A stretch of DNA of 64,000 nucleotides from Roseobacter insulae (lineage in GTDB: Bacteria > Pseudomonadota > Alphaproteobacteria > Rhodobacterales > Rhodobacteraceae). The stretch is from assembly GCF_019375555.1 (NCBI RefSeq), contig NZ_JAHXDN010000001.1:535501-599500 (forward strand), written 5' to 3'. Both the position numbers and the translations under genes were made by a program. Positions 42,233 to 51,469 of this stretch are shown in pieces (positions within the stretch are counted from its first letter, which is position 1; the number at the start of each line of letters is the position of its first letter). The notes beneath the pieces were generated by a model. That model saw nothing but the letters and a program-made list of their open reading frames with translations. It searched no databases and had not been told where the DNA came from.

Positions 42233-43077
42233 TACCGCAATACCGCCGCGCGCGCTTCCCGGTCGACCTCCGGACGTGGACCAAACCAGCGTTCAAAGCC
42301 CGGGACCGCCTGATGCAGCAACATGCCCAGGCCGTCCACTGTGACGCAGCCCTTTTCATCGGCCGTTTCAATCAGCCGGGTCTTCAACGGTGTATACACC
42401 AGATCCGTCACAACGGTTTCTTTTCGCAACCCGTCGAGAGGCACCCGCATTTCCGGTTTCCCCACCATTCCGAGCGAGGACGTATTGACGACGAGGCTTG
42501 CTTCTTCGAGCATATTTCCCGCCTGCACCCAATCAATCACGGTAATGCGGTTGCCAAAATCGGATTGTAGTTTTTCTGCCCGCACGCGCGTTCGGTTGGA
42601 AAGCAGGATTTCAGGCACCCCCGCTTCAAGCAGGGATGCGATCACAGCGCGGGAGGCGCCTCCCGCGCCGAGGATTGCCGCGGCGCCTTGTGTAGGGTTC
42701 CATTTCGGCGCACCGGCTTTCAGATTTTCAAGAAAACCGTAACCATCTGTATTATCTGCATGAATCTTCCCATCTTTGCGAAAGATCAGCGTATTCGCCG
42801 CACCGATCAGCGTGGCCCTATCAGTAACCAGATCGGCAATTTCCAAAACCGCTTCTTTGTGAGGGATGGTGATGTTGACACCAACAAATCCGGCCTTCGG
42901 CAGGGTGATCAGGACGTCCCGCAAATCTCGGGCCGCCACATCCATGGGAATGTAAAACCCGCGCACGCCGTACTTGCTCAGCCAGTGACGATGCAGTTGA
43001 GGCGATTTGGAATGCGAAATCGGCGATCCGATCACCCCGGCGAGAGGAATGCTGGAAGGCGCTTGTGTGTCGGTCAT
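42232..43077 (-). CDS. aroE: shikimate dehydrogenase
   Basis: A 281-residue NADPH-dependent enzyme. IGSPISHSKSPQLHRHWL is the shikimate-binding end, NITIPHKEAVL holds the catalytic Lys, NTDGYGFLENL is conserved, and the cofactor site is ILGAGGASRAV with NRTRVRAE. It reduces 3-dehydroshikimate in aromatic amino acid synthesis. It overlaps maf by ATGA and coaE by one base. Confidence 0.94.
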   Translation of the reverse strand: MTDTQAPSSIPLAGVIGSPISHSKSPQLHRHWLSKYGVRGFYIPMDVAARDLRDVLITLPKAGFVGVNITIPHKEAVLEIADLVTDRATLIGAANTLIFRKDGKIHADNTDGYGFLENLKAGAPKWNPTQGAAAILGAGGASRAVIASLLEAGVPEILLSNRTRVRAEKLQSDFGNRITVIDWVQAGNMLEEASLVVNTSSLGMVGKPEMRVPLDGLRKETVVTDLVYTPLKTRLIETADEKGCVTVDGLGMLLHQAVPGFERWFGPRPEVDREARAAVLR

Positions 43078-43673
43078 GTCTCTAGGTCTCCGCGCAGCGT
43101 CAGGTAGGATAACAGCTCAAGCAAAGGCAAGCCGAGGACGTTGAAATAGTCGCCCTCGATACCGGTAAAGAGGCGCACACCTTCTTCTTCCAGTTTGTAG
43201 GCGCCCACCGCATGACGAATACTCTCCCAGTTTCGGGCGACATATCCTTCGATGTAGTCATCGGACGCTGCCCGCATCCTCAATCGGACGGTGCCGACAT
43301 GTCGCCAGATCGGTCGACCCGCTTCGCAGATCACGGCTGCGGACAACAGCATATGGCGGTCATTGCGCAGCGCCCGCAGTTGATCAACTGCCTCATCTTT
43401 TGTTTGCGGCTTGGACAGAAGCTGCCCCTTGTAATCCAGCACCTGATCACACCCCAGGACAAGCGCATGCGGGTTTTTTTCGCTGATCTTCCTTGCCTTC
43501 AGCTCCGCCAGGGCGTCGGCGATATTGCGCGGTGGCTCTGCTTCTGCCAGCATGGCGTCACGCACCATTTCTTCGTCCACGCGGGCCGGCACAACCGTGA
43601 AATCAACTGCTGCCTGACCCAAGAGCTGCGCTCTGATGTCCGAGGTGGAGGCGAGGATGAAAGGCTGGGTCAT
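43074..43673 (-). CDS. maf: Maf family nucleotide pyrophosphatase
   Basis: A 199-residue Maf-like protein that hydrolyses non-canonical or surplus nucleoside triphosphates. LASTSDIRAQLL, VPARVDEE, LVLGCDQVLDY and AVGAYKLEEEGVRLF are family landmarks. It is the first gene of the leftward operon and its start codon abuts a perfect DnaA box (43673-43681). It marks the left edge of the predicted origin. Confidence 0.92.
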   Translation of the reverse strand: MTQPFILASTSDIRAQLLGQAAVDFTVVPARVDEEMVRDAMLAEAEPPRNIADALAELKARKISEKNPHALVLGCDQVLDYKGQLLSKPQTKDEAVDQLRALRNDRHMLLSAAVICEAGRPIWRHVGTVRLRMRAASDDYIEGYVARNWESIRHAVGAYKLEEEGVRLFTGIEGDYFNVLGLPLLELLSYLTLRGDLET

Positions 43674-43681
43674 GTGGATAA
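43673..43681 (-). promoter_or_regulatory. perfect DnaA box
   Basis: The sequence TGTGGATAA, reverse complement TTATCCACA, is an exact DnaA box. It sits at the start codon of maf, on the edge of the predicted origin. Confidence 0.75.
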
Positions 43682-43695
43682 GCCTGTGTGCGGCG

Positions 43696-43710
43696 TTAAG
43701 ATATTCTTAA
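43696..43710. promoter_or_regulatory. predicted CtrA full binding site (TTAA-N7-TTAA) in oriC
   Basis: TTAAGATATTCTTAA is an exact TTAA-N7-TTAA and also a near-perfect palindrome. It lies 15 bp from the perfect DnaA box. In Caulobacter CtrA binds the origin and blocks re-initiation. A role here is inferred. Confidence 0.55.
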
Positions 43711-43818
43711 TATGTTCTTCTGAGCAAAAGAACGGTTTGACGCAAGAGGCTCGGTTGATGGGGGTAACACCTCTGAACACAAAAACGACACCACTGCGCA
43801 TAATAACAACTGCGAACC

Positions 43819-43852
43819 TGTGCATAAGAAAATGGTGTTGGAATTACCCACA
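43819..43852. promoter_or_regulatory. pair of DnaA-box-like sites
   Basis: TGTGCATAA (43819-43827, minus orientation) and TTACCCACA (43844-43852, plus orientation) each differ from TTATCCACA by one base. They face each other inside the predicted origin, near the AT-rich run. Confidence 0.5.
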
Positions 43853-43984
43853 GGGTTATACCTGACATCCGTATAGAAGGCTAGTTTTAAGTAATTGTAA
43901 TAATTATATTTTTTATGATATTTTGGTTATCCTGAAAAAGGATGGCCGGGGTTTTCCATCGGTAGAAATCATGGGAGAAAACCA

Positions 43985-43993
43985 TAATCCACA
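43985..43993 (+). promoter_or_regulatory. DnaA-box-like site
   Basis: TAATCCACA is one base from the DnaA box consensus. It lies to the right of the main AT-rich run of the predicted origin. Confidence 0.45.
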
Positions 43994-44075
43994 GAAGTTC
44001 GGATCCCTACATAATCATCATCCTTTTATCTTTCTTTATTAATTAATATGAGAGGCGAACGGATCGGAGAATTTC

Positions 44076-44525
44076 ATGTCGGACTTTCTTGCCCTCGCCT
44101 ACCCGTGGATCAAGTCCTTTCACATCATGGCGGTGATTGCATGGATGGCCGGGTTGTTCTACATGCCGCGGCTTTTCGTTTATCACGCGGAACAGGTGGG
44201 GCAGACGGGTGACACGCACAGGCTGTTTCAAACCATGGAAGTCAAACTGCTGCGCGTCATTATGAACCCGGCAATGATCGCGACATGGGTTTTTGGGTTG
44301 TGCCTGGTTTTCACTCCGGGTGTCGTGGACTGGTCCGACATCTGGCCATGGACCAAGGCGATCGGTGTCTCGGCCATGACCGTCTTTCATCATTGGCTTG
44401 GAAGGCGTCGCAGGGATTTTGCGAACGGCGCGAATGTTCTGACCGGTCGGCAGTATCGCATGATGAACGAGGTTCCGACCGTCTTGATGGTGCTGATCGT
44501 GCTGTCGGTCGTGGTCCGCTTCTGA
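44076..44525 (+). CDS. hemJ: protoporphyrinogen oxidase HemJ
   Basis: A 149-residue inner-membrane protein with four predicted helices. KSFHIMAVIAWMAGLFYMPRL carries the conserved His (seen here as SFHIMAVIAW) and YMPRLFVYH, and GRRRRDFANG and RMMNEVPTVLM follow. HemJ oxidises protoporphyrinogen IX in bacteria lacking HemG/HemY-type oxidases. It is the first gene right of the origin and is followed by rho, an order conserved in alphaproteobacteria. Confidence 0.92.
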   Translation: MSDFLALAYPWIKSFHIMAVIAWMAGLFYMPRLFVYHAEQVGQTGDTHRLFQTMEVKLLRVIMNPAMIATWVFGLCLVFTPGVVDWSDIWPWTKAIGVSAMTVFHHWLGRRRRDFANGANVLTGRQYRMMNEVPTVLMVLIVLSVVVRF

Positions 44526-47280: not shown

Positions 47281-49152
47281 GTGTTTCACGTGAAACATTT
47301 TGATGTTGTGGTGATCGGCGGTGGTCATGCGGGCACCGAGGCGGCCCACGCTGCCGCGCGGCTCGGTGCCCAAACGGCCCTGGTTACAATGTCAGAAACC
47401 GGGATTGGCGTGATGTCGTGCAATCCAGCTATCGGAGGGCTCGGGAAAGGGCATCTTGTACGGGAGATCGACGCGCTGGATGGTGTGATGGGATGTGTCG
47501 CTGACAAGGCTGGCATCCAGTTCCGGTTGTTGAACCGGCGTAAAGGGCCAGCTGTTCAGGGACCCCGCGCGCAGGCTGATCGCGACATTTACCGGAGCGA
47601 GATGCTTAAGGAGACCAGGAACCAACCCGACTTGTCGATTGTGGTTGGGGAGGTGATTGATTTCCTGTTGGAAAAGGGGCGGATATGTGGGGTTTTGCTG
47701 CATGATGGCTCGGAAATCCGCGCGACATCGGTCGTATTGACCACCGGAACCTTTCTGCGGGGGGTAATCCATATTGGTGACGTGTCGCGCTCCGGTGGCA
47801 GGATGGGCGACAAGGCGTCAGTAAAGCTGGCAGAACGCATCGACTCGTTTGAGTTGCCACTGGGCCGTTTGAAAACGGGTACGCCGCCGCGGCTGGATGG
47901 TAGAACAATTCGCTGGGAGGTGTTGGAAAATCAGCCGGGTGATGATGATCCGACCATGTTCTCATTCCTCTCAACGGGAGTGTCAGCGCGCCAGATATCC
48001 TGCGGGATCACGCACACAAACACCAGAACGCATGATATTATTCGGGAAAACCTTTCCAGATCAGCGATGTACGGGGGTCACATTGATGGAATTGGCCCGC
48101 GCTACTGTCCGTCGATCGAAGATAAAATCGTGCGCTTCTCCGACAAGGAATCGCACCAGATCTTTCTGGAACCAGAGGGCCTGACAACAAATACGGTCTA
48201 TCCCAACGGGATCTCAACCTCTCTGCCCGAAGAGGTCCAGCAAGACTATGTTCACTCGATTTTCGGTCTGGAACAGGCGGTCATTCTACAGCCCGGATAT
48301 GCGATTGAGTACGATTACGTCGACCCACGGGCCCTGGACGCCGATCTTGGGGTGTCGAAAGTTCCCGGATTGTATCTTGCGGGCCAGATCAACGGAACAA
48401 CGGGCTACGAGGAGGCGGCAGCGCAAGGCATGGTAGCCGGGCTGAATGCTGCGCTCAAGGCTCAGGGAAATGACCCCCTGCATTTCTCGCGATCACAGAG
48501 CTATATCGGTGTGATGATTGACGATTTGACGATTCGGGGGGTCAGCGAGCCCTACCGGATGTTCACCTCGCGTGCGGAATTTCGGCTGTCCCTGCGCGCC
48601 GACAATGCTGATCAGCGGCTGACACCTGTCGGCATGGTGATTGGTTGCGTGGGAGAGGCCCGCGCTGCGCAATTCTCCGAAAAAGTGGAGAAGCTTGAGC
48701 AAGCACGCGAAATGCTGGATGCATCCTCTTTCACGCCGTCGCAGGTGGCAGATGTAGGTATCAGGATCAATCAGGACGGCGCCCGGCGCACGGCGATGCA
48801 ACTGCTCGCGTTTCCCGATGTGACCTTCTGCGAAGTGGAGAGTTTGGATGCCGGGTTTTCCACGATCCCGCCTGATATCAAACGTCAGATGGAGCGCGAG
48901 GCGCTGTACGCCAATTACATCCAGCGGCAGCAGCGTGACATTGACATGCTGAAGAAAGATGAAGCGCAGGTTATTCCGGCTGATTTTGACTACGATGCCT
49001 TGAACGGGCTGTCGAATGAACTGAAATCAAAGCTGGTGGCCACCCGTCCTTCCACTTTGGCGCAGGTTGGTCGCATCGACGGGATGACGCCAGCAGCCTT
49101 AACGCTGATCCTTGCAAAACTGCGTCAAAGAAAAAGAAGGCAATCCGCCTGA
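47281..49152 (+). CDS. mnmG: tRNA uridine-5-carboxymethylaminomethyl modification enzyme MnmG (GidA)
   Basis: A 623-residue FAD protein, partner of MnmE. The dinucleotide motif is [16 protein letters not shown], with [22 protein letters not shown] (in part: [13 protein letters not shown]), [16 protein letters not shown] and [16 protein letters not shown]. The start is GTG at 47281, with GGGGAAG 7 bp upstream. The first codons (VFHVKH) are formed by a parS palindrome at 47282-47297. A GTG at 47290 is the other possible start. It overlaps rsmG by one base. Confidence 0.95.
47282..47297. promoter_or_regulatory. parS: parS centromere site 1
   Basis: TGTTTCACGTGAAACA is a perfect 16-bp palindrome identical to the consensus parS bound by chromosomal ParB. 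It lies in codons 1-6 of mnmG. The parB gene starts 3.3 kb to the right. Confidence 0.92.
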
Positions 49153-49754
49153 TGATGTCAGAATGCGATGTTTCACGTGAAACATTGGAGAAACTCCAGA
49201 CCTACCACGATCTCATACACAAATGGAATCCAACGATTAATTTGGTCTCCAGGGCAAGCCTGGCCGAAATCTGGGAGCGCCATATCTGGGATTCGGCGCA
49301 GATTTATGATGTGGCTGGCAACGCAGACCATTGGGCGGATATCGGCAGCGGCGGTGGATTGCCCGGCATTGTGGTCGCCATTCTGGCCTGTGAAAAACAT
49401 CTGGGTCGCCATGTCACCCTGATTGAAAGCGATAGACGAAAGGCCACCTTCCTGCGGACAGTAATTCGCGAGGTTGGTTTGAACGCCTCCGTCATCGTGT
49501 CGCGCATCGAAGACGTGCCGCCGCTTGATGCGGACGTACTGTCCGCACGCGCGCTGGCAGATCTGCCCATTCTTCTGGGTTTTGCGGATCGGCACGTAAA
49601 GGCTGGCGGCAAATCACTCTTCTTCAAAGGGCAAACCTGGGAAAAAGAGGTCGCGGATGCACGTGAGTCGTGGTCTTTTGATTTGCTAGCGCATAAAAGT
49701 AAAACAAACCCGCAGGCCGCCATTCTTGAGGTGAAGGATATCCGACGTGACTGA
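49152..49754 (+). CDS. rsmG: 16S rRNA (guanine-527-N7)-methyltransferase RsmG (GidB)
   Basis: A 200-residue SAM-dependent methyltransferase. [19 protein letters not shown] opens the domain, [15 protein letters not shown] is the SAM motif, then [15 protein letters not shown]. It methylates G527 of 16S rRNA. The ATG at 49152 overlaps the mnmG stop (TGATG). The segment DVSRET near residue 6 is encoded by a second parS. It overlaps parA by eight bases. Confidence 0.94.
49169..49184. promoter_or_regulatory. parS: parS centromere site 2
   Basis: A second exact TGTTTCACGTGAAACA, 1.9 kb from the first and 563 bp before the parA start. It is read in a different frame from site 1 (VSRET in rsmG against FHVKH in mnmG), so the DNA motif rather than the peptide is conserved. 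Confidence 0.92.
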
Positions 49755-50556
49755 CTTGTCCCGCCCCGCCGGACCGAAAATTATCGCGGTTGCAAACCAG
49801 AAGGGCGGCGTCGGTAAGACGACCACAACAATCAATCTGGCAGCTGCCTTGGCGGAAGCGGGCAAACGGGTTCTTGTCGTGGATCTTGATCCGCAGGGAA
49901 ATGCGTCCACAGGTCTGGGGATCGAGATGGAGGATCGGGAATTCACCACCTACGAGCTGCTACTGGAGGATATCGACCTGAAATCGGTCGTCCTGCCGTC
50001 GGTGACGCCCGGATTGATGATCATCCCCGCCACGGTCGATCTGAGCTCGGCGGATATCGAGCTGATTTCAAACGAAAAACGCAGCTTCCTGTTGCATGAT
50101 GCGCTGCGTCAGACGGCAATGGACGATTTCGCGCTCGATTACATCCTGATTGATTGCCCACCGTCGCTTAATCTGCTGACCGTGAATGCGATGATTGCAT
50201 CGCACTCGGTGCTCGTCCCGCTGCAAAGTGAGTTCTTTGCCCTAGAAGGGTTGTCACAGCTTATGCTGACGATCCGCGAAGTGCGACAGAGTGGGAATAA
50301 GGACTTGCGCATCGAAGGTATTGTGTTGACCATGTATGACCAACGCAACAACTTGTCTTTGCAAGTCGAACAGGATGCACGGGACAATCTGGGAGAGTTG
50401 GTTTTCGATACCCGAATTCCGCGGAATGTGAGGGTCAGCGAGGCACCCTCTTTCGCAATGCCGGTTCTGACCTACGATACCGCATCCAAGGGCGCGCAGG
50501 CGTATCGGTTGCTGGCACGCGAAGTACTGAGCAGAAACAGCGTAAAAGTCGCATAA
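49747..50556 (+). CDS. parA: chromosome partitioning ATPase ParA (Soj)
   Basis: A 269-residue deviant Walker-A ATPase. [19 protein letters not shown] is the P-loop, [14 protein letters not shown] and [15 protein letters not shown] are Walker A' and B. ParA forms the gradient that pulls ParB-parS complexes apart. The start is GTG at 49747, overlapping rsmG. parB follows 10 bp later. Confidence 0.96.
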
Positions 50557-50566
50557 GGGGGCAGTC

Positions 50567-51469
50567 ATGGCAGGTGGAGCGGATCGTAAACGTGGGTTGG
50601 GGCGCGGCTTGTCAGCGCTGATGTCCGATGTTGCGGAAACTGAAAAGGTGACCAGCGCCGGGCCCGCGTCGGCGGACCGGATGATCCCGATTGAGCAGAT
50701 TACGCCGAACCCGGACCAGCCACGCAAGCGGTTTGCCGTGGATGATCTGGGTGATCTCGCGTCCTCAATCCGCGAAAAAGGGATAATTCAGCCACTTGTG
50801 GTTCGCGCTATGGCGGATGGGCGATACGAAATTGTCGCTGGCGAGCGCCGCTGGCGGGCAGCGCAGATGGCTAAACTGCATGAATTGCCGGTTGTCATCC
50901 GGTCCTTTACCGACGTCGAAGTGCTCGAAGTCGCGATCATCGAGAATATCCAGCGTGCTGACCTGAACCCAATCGAAGAAGCCGCGGGCTACCGCCAGTT
51001 GATGGATCGATTTGGCCACACCCAGGAAAAGATGGCAGAGGCGCTGGGGAAAAGCAGGAGCCATATTGCCAACCTTCTGCGACTTCTGAACCTGCCTGAC
51101 GCGGTGTTGGACATGGTCCGCACCGGTGACTTGAGCGCCGGGCACGCCCGCACGCTGATCACTGCCGACAACCCGCTGCGGCTTGCGCAACAGATCGTCA
51201 AGGGCGGGTTGTCGGTGCGCGCGGCCGAAGCACTGGTGAAGAAAGAGCAGGCGGGCGCGGCCGGGAACATCTTCGGCAGCAAGGATACCAAGCCCAAACC
51301 TGACGGGAAAGACGCTGATACGAAGGCGTTGGAAGGCGATCTGTCCGCATCCCTTGGGATGAAAGTCAGCCTGACCCATAAGCCCGGTCAAGAATCCGGA
51401 CAAATGACACTGCATTACACGTCGTTGGATGAATTGGATGAATTGTGCCGGTTGCTCAGCAGCCGTTAA
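50567..51469 (+). CDS. parB: chromosome partitioning CTPase/DNA-binding protein ParB
   Basis: A 300-residue ParB. RGLGRGLSALMSD is the ParA-interacting tail, then ITPNPDQPRKRF, the CTP/arginine-patch motif VAGERRWRAAQMAKL, the helix-turn-helix AEALGKSRSHIANLLRL, and GHARTLITADNPL. The C-terminal domain dimerises. ParB binds the parS sites in mnmG and rsmG. Its stop codon overlaps that of hemW by four bases (convergent). Confidence 0.96.
   Translation: MAGGADRKRGLGRGLSALMSDVAETEKVTSAGPASADRMIPIEQITPNPDQPRKRFAVDDLGDLASSIREKGIIQPLVVRAMADGRYEIVAGERRWRAAQMAKLHELPVVIRSFTDVEVLEVAIIENIQRADLNPIEEAAGYRQLMDRFGHTQEKMAEALGKSRSHIANLLRLLNLPDAVLDMVRTGDLSAGHARTLITADNPLRLAQQIVKGGLSVRAAEALVKKEQAGAAGNIFGSKDTKPKPDGKDADTKALEGDLSASLGMKVSLTHKPGQESGQMTLHYTSLDELDELCRLLSSR

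Follow-up and report, generated by a model that had tools for sequence, protein, structure and literature searches.

We identified the AT-rich, 402-bp intergenic region between maf and hemJ of Roseobacter insulae as, very probably, the replication origin (oriC) of the Roseobacter chromosome. The region lies at positions 43674..44075 of the window, that is, of the whole 64,000-nucleotide stretch of DNA analyzed here (C1:535501-599500, in a genome of 4.88 Mb and 17 contigs). This assignment, predicted from sequence features, is based on clustered DnaA boxes, a conserved succession of box, spacer, trinucleotide array and AT-rich tract, the proximity of parS and parAB, and the change in strand composition around the locus. 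A probable chromosome origin was already proposed here in the original prediction, and GC skew, parS, the conservation of the gap in all fetched relatives, an element found across the class and the location of the least stable 50-mers agree with that proposal. According to the main text of an Ori-Finder-based curation, the origins of 101 Rhodobacteraceae chromosomes have been predicted from the skew minimum, DnaA boxes and closeness of parAB (PMC6699656); an origin at the present gap, which belongs to the same family and displays the same kinds of features, is therefore to be expected. As far as its main text goes, that study names neither maf nor hemJ, and we found no replication or DnaA-binding experiment on the maf-hemJ locus in the literature. 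As an origin, the locus is of an ordinary kind, and its array variant is the part that deserves follow-up.

The GC content of the gap is 39.3% vs 59.1% for the whole window, and only 0.05% of the 402-bp windows in these 64 kb have a GC content as low, so that the gap essentially represents the GC floor for that size. Of all 50-mers in the window, the two least stable that do not overlap also start within it, at 43881 and 44003; the least stable one (43881..43930) is AT-rich and includes a conserved TAA-N4-TTG core. As originally noted, the gap carries one perfect and three near-perfect DnaA boxes: an exact TTATCCACA on the minus strand (43673..43681), which overlaps the maf start codon and whose position is conserved in the alignment of relatives, and three boxes with one mismatch each, namely, TTATGCACA on the minus strand (43819..43827), TTACCCACA on the plus strand (43844..43852), where the consensus of the relatives reads TTATCCACA, and TAATCCACA on the plus strand (43985..43993), adjoining the predicted unwinding site. 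Dinucleotide shuffles of the gap contained 0.17 such boxes on average and reached four in 0 of 500 rounds; the genome background is about 0.12 per kb (57 in 464 kb sampled), and no comparable cluster was seen elsewhere in the window. A search of the gap against Rfam returned just one chance match, far under the gathering score.

The flanking genes point away from the gap, with maf (43074..43673, TIGR00172) on the minus strand and hemJ (44076..44525, TIGR00701) on the plus strand. Profile searches recovered all the neighbors named in the original prediction, dnaQ, coaE, aroE and maf on the left and hemJ, rho, mnmE, mnmG, rsmG, a ParA-type ATPase and ParB on the right, and added secB to the origin region. 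The gene annotated as parA (49747..50556, plus strand) matches ParA-type ATPases under the curated ParA cut-off and is followed by parB (50567..51469, plus strand), which contains the Pfam domains ParB_N, HTH_ParB and ParB_C. Two exact parS sites, TGTTTCACGTGAAACA, are located at 47282..47297 and 49169..49184, 3.2 and 5.1 kb to the right of the gap, and these are the only two matches in the whole genome with up to two mismatches allowed. Two exact parS sites are likewise found 3-5 kb from the gap in the closed genomes of two relatives, G055 and G003.

This arrangement resembles that of Caulobacter. Beyond hemE and COG1806, the Caulobacter gene order, which we take to comprise rho on the hem side and maf-aroE-coaE-dnaQ-secB on the other side, with parAB nearby, recurs here: a hem gene and rho are on one side, maf-aroE-coaE-dnaQ-secB on the other, and parAB nearby. 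The origin of Caulobacter crescentus (Cori) is also an AT-rich intergenic region, about 400 bp long and containing DnaA boxes, and it is flanked by hemE and COG1806 in both Caulobacter and Rickettsia (PMC1914354). In contrast, hemJ adjoins the gap in Roseobacter insulae, hemE lies elsewhere, and a search that does detect COG1806 (ppsR) in Caulobacter did not find it in this genome; the genes that come next on either side are retained. The original remark that hemE is missing thus holds for the locus but not for the genome, where hemE is encoded on contig C12. Given that alphaproteobacterial origins with other flanks have also been reported (PMC1914354), hemE and COG1806 are a landmark rather than a strict requirement. 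The most parsimonious reading of the gene order is that hemE and COG1806 disappeared from this locus in the Rhodobacteraceae lineage, whereby hemJ and maf became the neighbors of the gap. The gap further differs from the Caulobacter origin in having one CtrA-type site, an exact TTAA-N7-TTAA (43696..43710) that is absent from the consensus of the relatives and of doubtful function, and no IHF-type site, WATCAANNNNTTR, with up to one mismatch allowed, IHF sites not being universal.

The divergent maf-gap-hemJ arrangement is conserved in all 80 fetched Rhodobacteraceae loci, with gap lengths of 359-452 bp (median, 405), and in every one of these the gap is richer in AT than its locus. By HemJ, the ten nearest named relatives are all Roseobacter (77-87% identity), in line with a place in the Roseobacter clade of the Rhodobacteraceae. 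A typical Rhodobacteraceae maf-origin-hemJ-rho locus is also present in JAAUPT010000331.1, labeled as a Nitrospira sp. MAG, where it is probably a contaminant. In the alignment of the relatives, the DnaA boxes are conserved, and the strongest footprint is a block before hemJ that consists of the box TAATCCACA, a spacer, CCCTACANAATCATCATC, and a pyrimidine-rich and then AT-rich tract.

In Roseobacter insulae, this block contains a trinucleotide array resembling DnaA-trios, CTA-CAT-AAT-CAT-CAT on the plus strand (44007..44021), which starts 13 bp after the box at 43985 and is followed by the conserved pyrimidine-rich, then AT-rich tract (44022..44055), the predicted DNA-unwinding element, a prediction supported by the second least stable 50-mer, which starts at 44003. 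In 41 of 81 sequences, exactly 13 bp separate the best box from the array that follows it. Anchoring on TAATCCACA, applied to 53 sequences, gives a lag-3 identity of 0.61 in the array; the control DNA that precedes the box gives 0.25, and lags 1, 2, 4, 5 and 7 of the array give 0.17-0.27. The letters of the array vary and the triplet rhythm stays, as in CTACAACAACAACAACATC of Nioella and CTACTTACATCATCATC of Sulfitobacter.

A similar element precedes hemE in other families. In a survey of the regions upstream of hemE, mostly with one genome per alphaproteobacterial family, many families display a box, such as TAATCCCCG or TTATCCCCA, then 11-14 bp, triplets of the form C-[T/A]-[A/C/T], AT-rich DNA and hemE. 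The triplet class was fixed on the first 29 loci. In 10 of a hold-out set of 39 genomes, the hemE strand then carried at least five of the six triplets (opposite strand, none; mean in shuffles, 0.8), and a box and four perfect triplets at 8-17 bp were present in 6 of the 39 (none in 30 rounds of shuffling). Under such strict criteria, the element is found in a minority of families; many others show arrays of a looser kind. The exact 21-base array pattern, searched across the class with two mismatches, gave mostly chance matches, one of which, in G137, is located about 55 bp upstream of hemE. The maf-hemJ gap contains no GANTC, the CcrM methylation motif; in other alphaproteobacteria, GATTC is frequent in the AT-rich tract between the array and hemE, and the density of GANTC upstream of hemE is 1.5 per 250 bp vs about 0.85 expected from base composition.

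The block before hemJ could instead be a promoter or regulatory element of heme genes, with the gap merely a divergent promoter of DnaA-regulated genes. Both hemJ here and hemE in the other families are heme genes, DnaA boxes occur in promoters too, and a site on contig C10, described below, shows such a case. We nevertheless rejected this explanation as very unlikely because the element does not follow the heme genes: neither an array nor a DnaA box is present upstream of the relocated hemE, on C12 here and in the relative G082, and hemJ of 24 genomes with a hemE-flanked gap has no upstream DnaA box and a low array score. The element is thus a feature of the locus rather than of the heme gene. 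Moreover, a heme-gene element would leave parS, the skew and the clustering of boxes unexplained.

GC skew, computed on stretches sampled along the genome, including the 1.27-Mb contig C1, is mostly negative to the left of the window on this contig and mostly positive to the right. In the closed genome G055, the roughly 2 Mb that follow the gap have positive skew and the roughly 2 Mb that precede it negative skew, and the sign changes a second time at 2.2-2.4 Mb, on the opposite side of the chromosome; in the closed genome G003, the sign change is located at the gap. The cumulative GC-skew minimum of Roseobacter insulae is at C1:558440 (22.9 kb in the window), which is left of the gap by about 21 kb; taken at face value, it would place the true origin there, up to about 20 kb from the gap, or else the origin might be at dnaA. 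We consider a displaced origin of either kind exceedingly improbable. At a scale of about 20 kb, gene orientation blurs skew minima; that of G003 lies just 1.5 kb from the gap (contiguous 100 kb); and the rest of the window lacks a comparable box cluster. Because an offset of about 21 kb is seen in this genome and, for the local minimum, also ahead of the origin of G055, skew alone resolves the origin site no more finely than about 20 kb; the offset may come from gene orientation or a small inversion. Minima of the keto skew are more scattered than those of the GC skew. The original prediction had staked the origin on a skew minimum not lying far from the gap, and it does not, though it is displaced to the left. 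The dnaA gene itself was rejected as the origin site since it is about 215 kb from the gap, inside a positive-skew stretch, and all sampled stretches between the gap and dnaA have the skew sign of the right arm. A second protein (C11:259470-259715; open frame of 166 aa) matches DnaA over its C-terminal DNA-binding part alone, and similar C-terminal DnaA fragments are present in other alphaproteobacteria.

The chance that the origin is instead in an AT-rich gap of contig C10, at about 701.1-701.2 kb, appears negligible: two exact DnaA boxes are found there 76 bp apart in AT-rich DNA (C10:701100-701240), but the site was rejected given that it has no parS, is flanked by an exonuclease-family gene and a DUF6902 gene rather than by origin neighbors, and resembles a promoter with several TTAA/GGTTAA motifs. 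It is perhaps a DnaA/CtrA-regulated promoter or a DnaA-titration site.

Returning to the array at the predicted origin, we compared it with the basal unwinding system (BUS) of Bacillus subtilis, which contains DnaA-trios. The published rule for a BUS demands a co-oriented DnaA box with no more than two mismatches, no more than 16 bp from an array of at least three consecutive 3'-NAN-5' trios; the commonest trio is 3'-GAT-5' (PMC6669920, PMC8287927, PMC10721633), and 13 bp is the commonest spacer between box and trio (PMC8287927). The Roseobacter element shares with the B. subtilis BUS the co-oriented box TAATCCACA, the 13-bp spacer, the trinucleotide periodicity and the AT-rich DNA that follows. 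The complementary strand of the array reads 3'-GAT GTA TTA GTA GTA-5', so that the first triplet is the canonical 3'-GAT-5' and the others have a middle T; unlike in the B. subtilis BUS, the later Roseobacter triplets are mostly 3'-GTA-5' or 3'-GTT-5'. Consequently, there is no match to the published rule at the array on the array strand, where three or more consecutive 3'-NAN-5' trios do not occur. On the other strand, matches to the rule start from the box at 43819 and from a box with two mismatches; these contain no GAT trio, and the region is little conserved among the relatives. The array may also be read in another register, ATC-ATC-ATC, with the middle A on the other strand, but this would require a spacer above the published 16 bp.

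In B. subtilis DnaA, Asn187 hydrogen-bonds the middle adenine, and thymine at that position initiates poorly (PMC10721633). Aligned to structure 8btg, the DnaA of Roseobacter insulae has Tyr at the site of Asn187 and Lys in place of Arg202. In 30 other alphaproteobacterial DnaA sequences, the Asn187 site is Tyr in 26 and Phe in 4, and the Arg202 site is Lys in all 30; the survey covers alphaproteobacteria alone (31 sequences) and thus does not address the covariation of residue and base. Tentatively, and with considerable doubt, we suggest from these comparisons that alphaproteobacterial origins might be opened by a variant trio array, 3'-G[A/T]N-5', read by DnaA with Tyr or Phe at the Asn187 site and Lys at the Arg202 site. 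The coexistence of canonical CTA triplets in other families counts against such a variant, as does the other register in which the array may be read. Deviant trios without the middle adenine have been suspected (PMC8287927), and that the present candidate array is one of them is a lead only. In the main texts of the open-licence literature, we found no report of a DnaA-trio in Alphaproteobacteria, only in epsilonproteobacteria; with a scope so limited, a missing report is no proof of novelty.

In the proposed working of this origin, DnaA-ATP would bind the boxes between 43673 and 43993. Its loading onto one strand of the triplet array (44007-44021) would start from the co-oriented box at 43985, and it would melt the adjacent AT-rich tract (44003-44055). 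Helicase loading would then start bidirectional replication, and ParB at the nearby parS sites would segregate the new origins.

If the array is a true variant, it would offer a simple test of how DnaA recognizes single-stranded origin DNA, with the recognized base and the residue reading it both altered in nature. Knowing the origin accurately fixes the chromosomal replication map of Roseobacter, and the origin locus predicted here would explain why, in Rhodobacteraceae, hemE does not serve as the landmark that it usually is for alphaproteobacterial origins.
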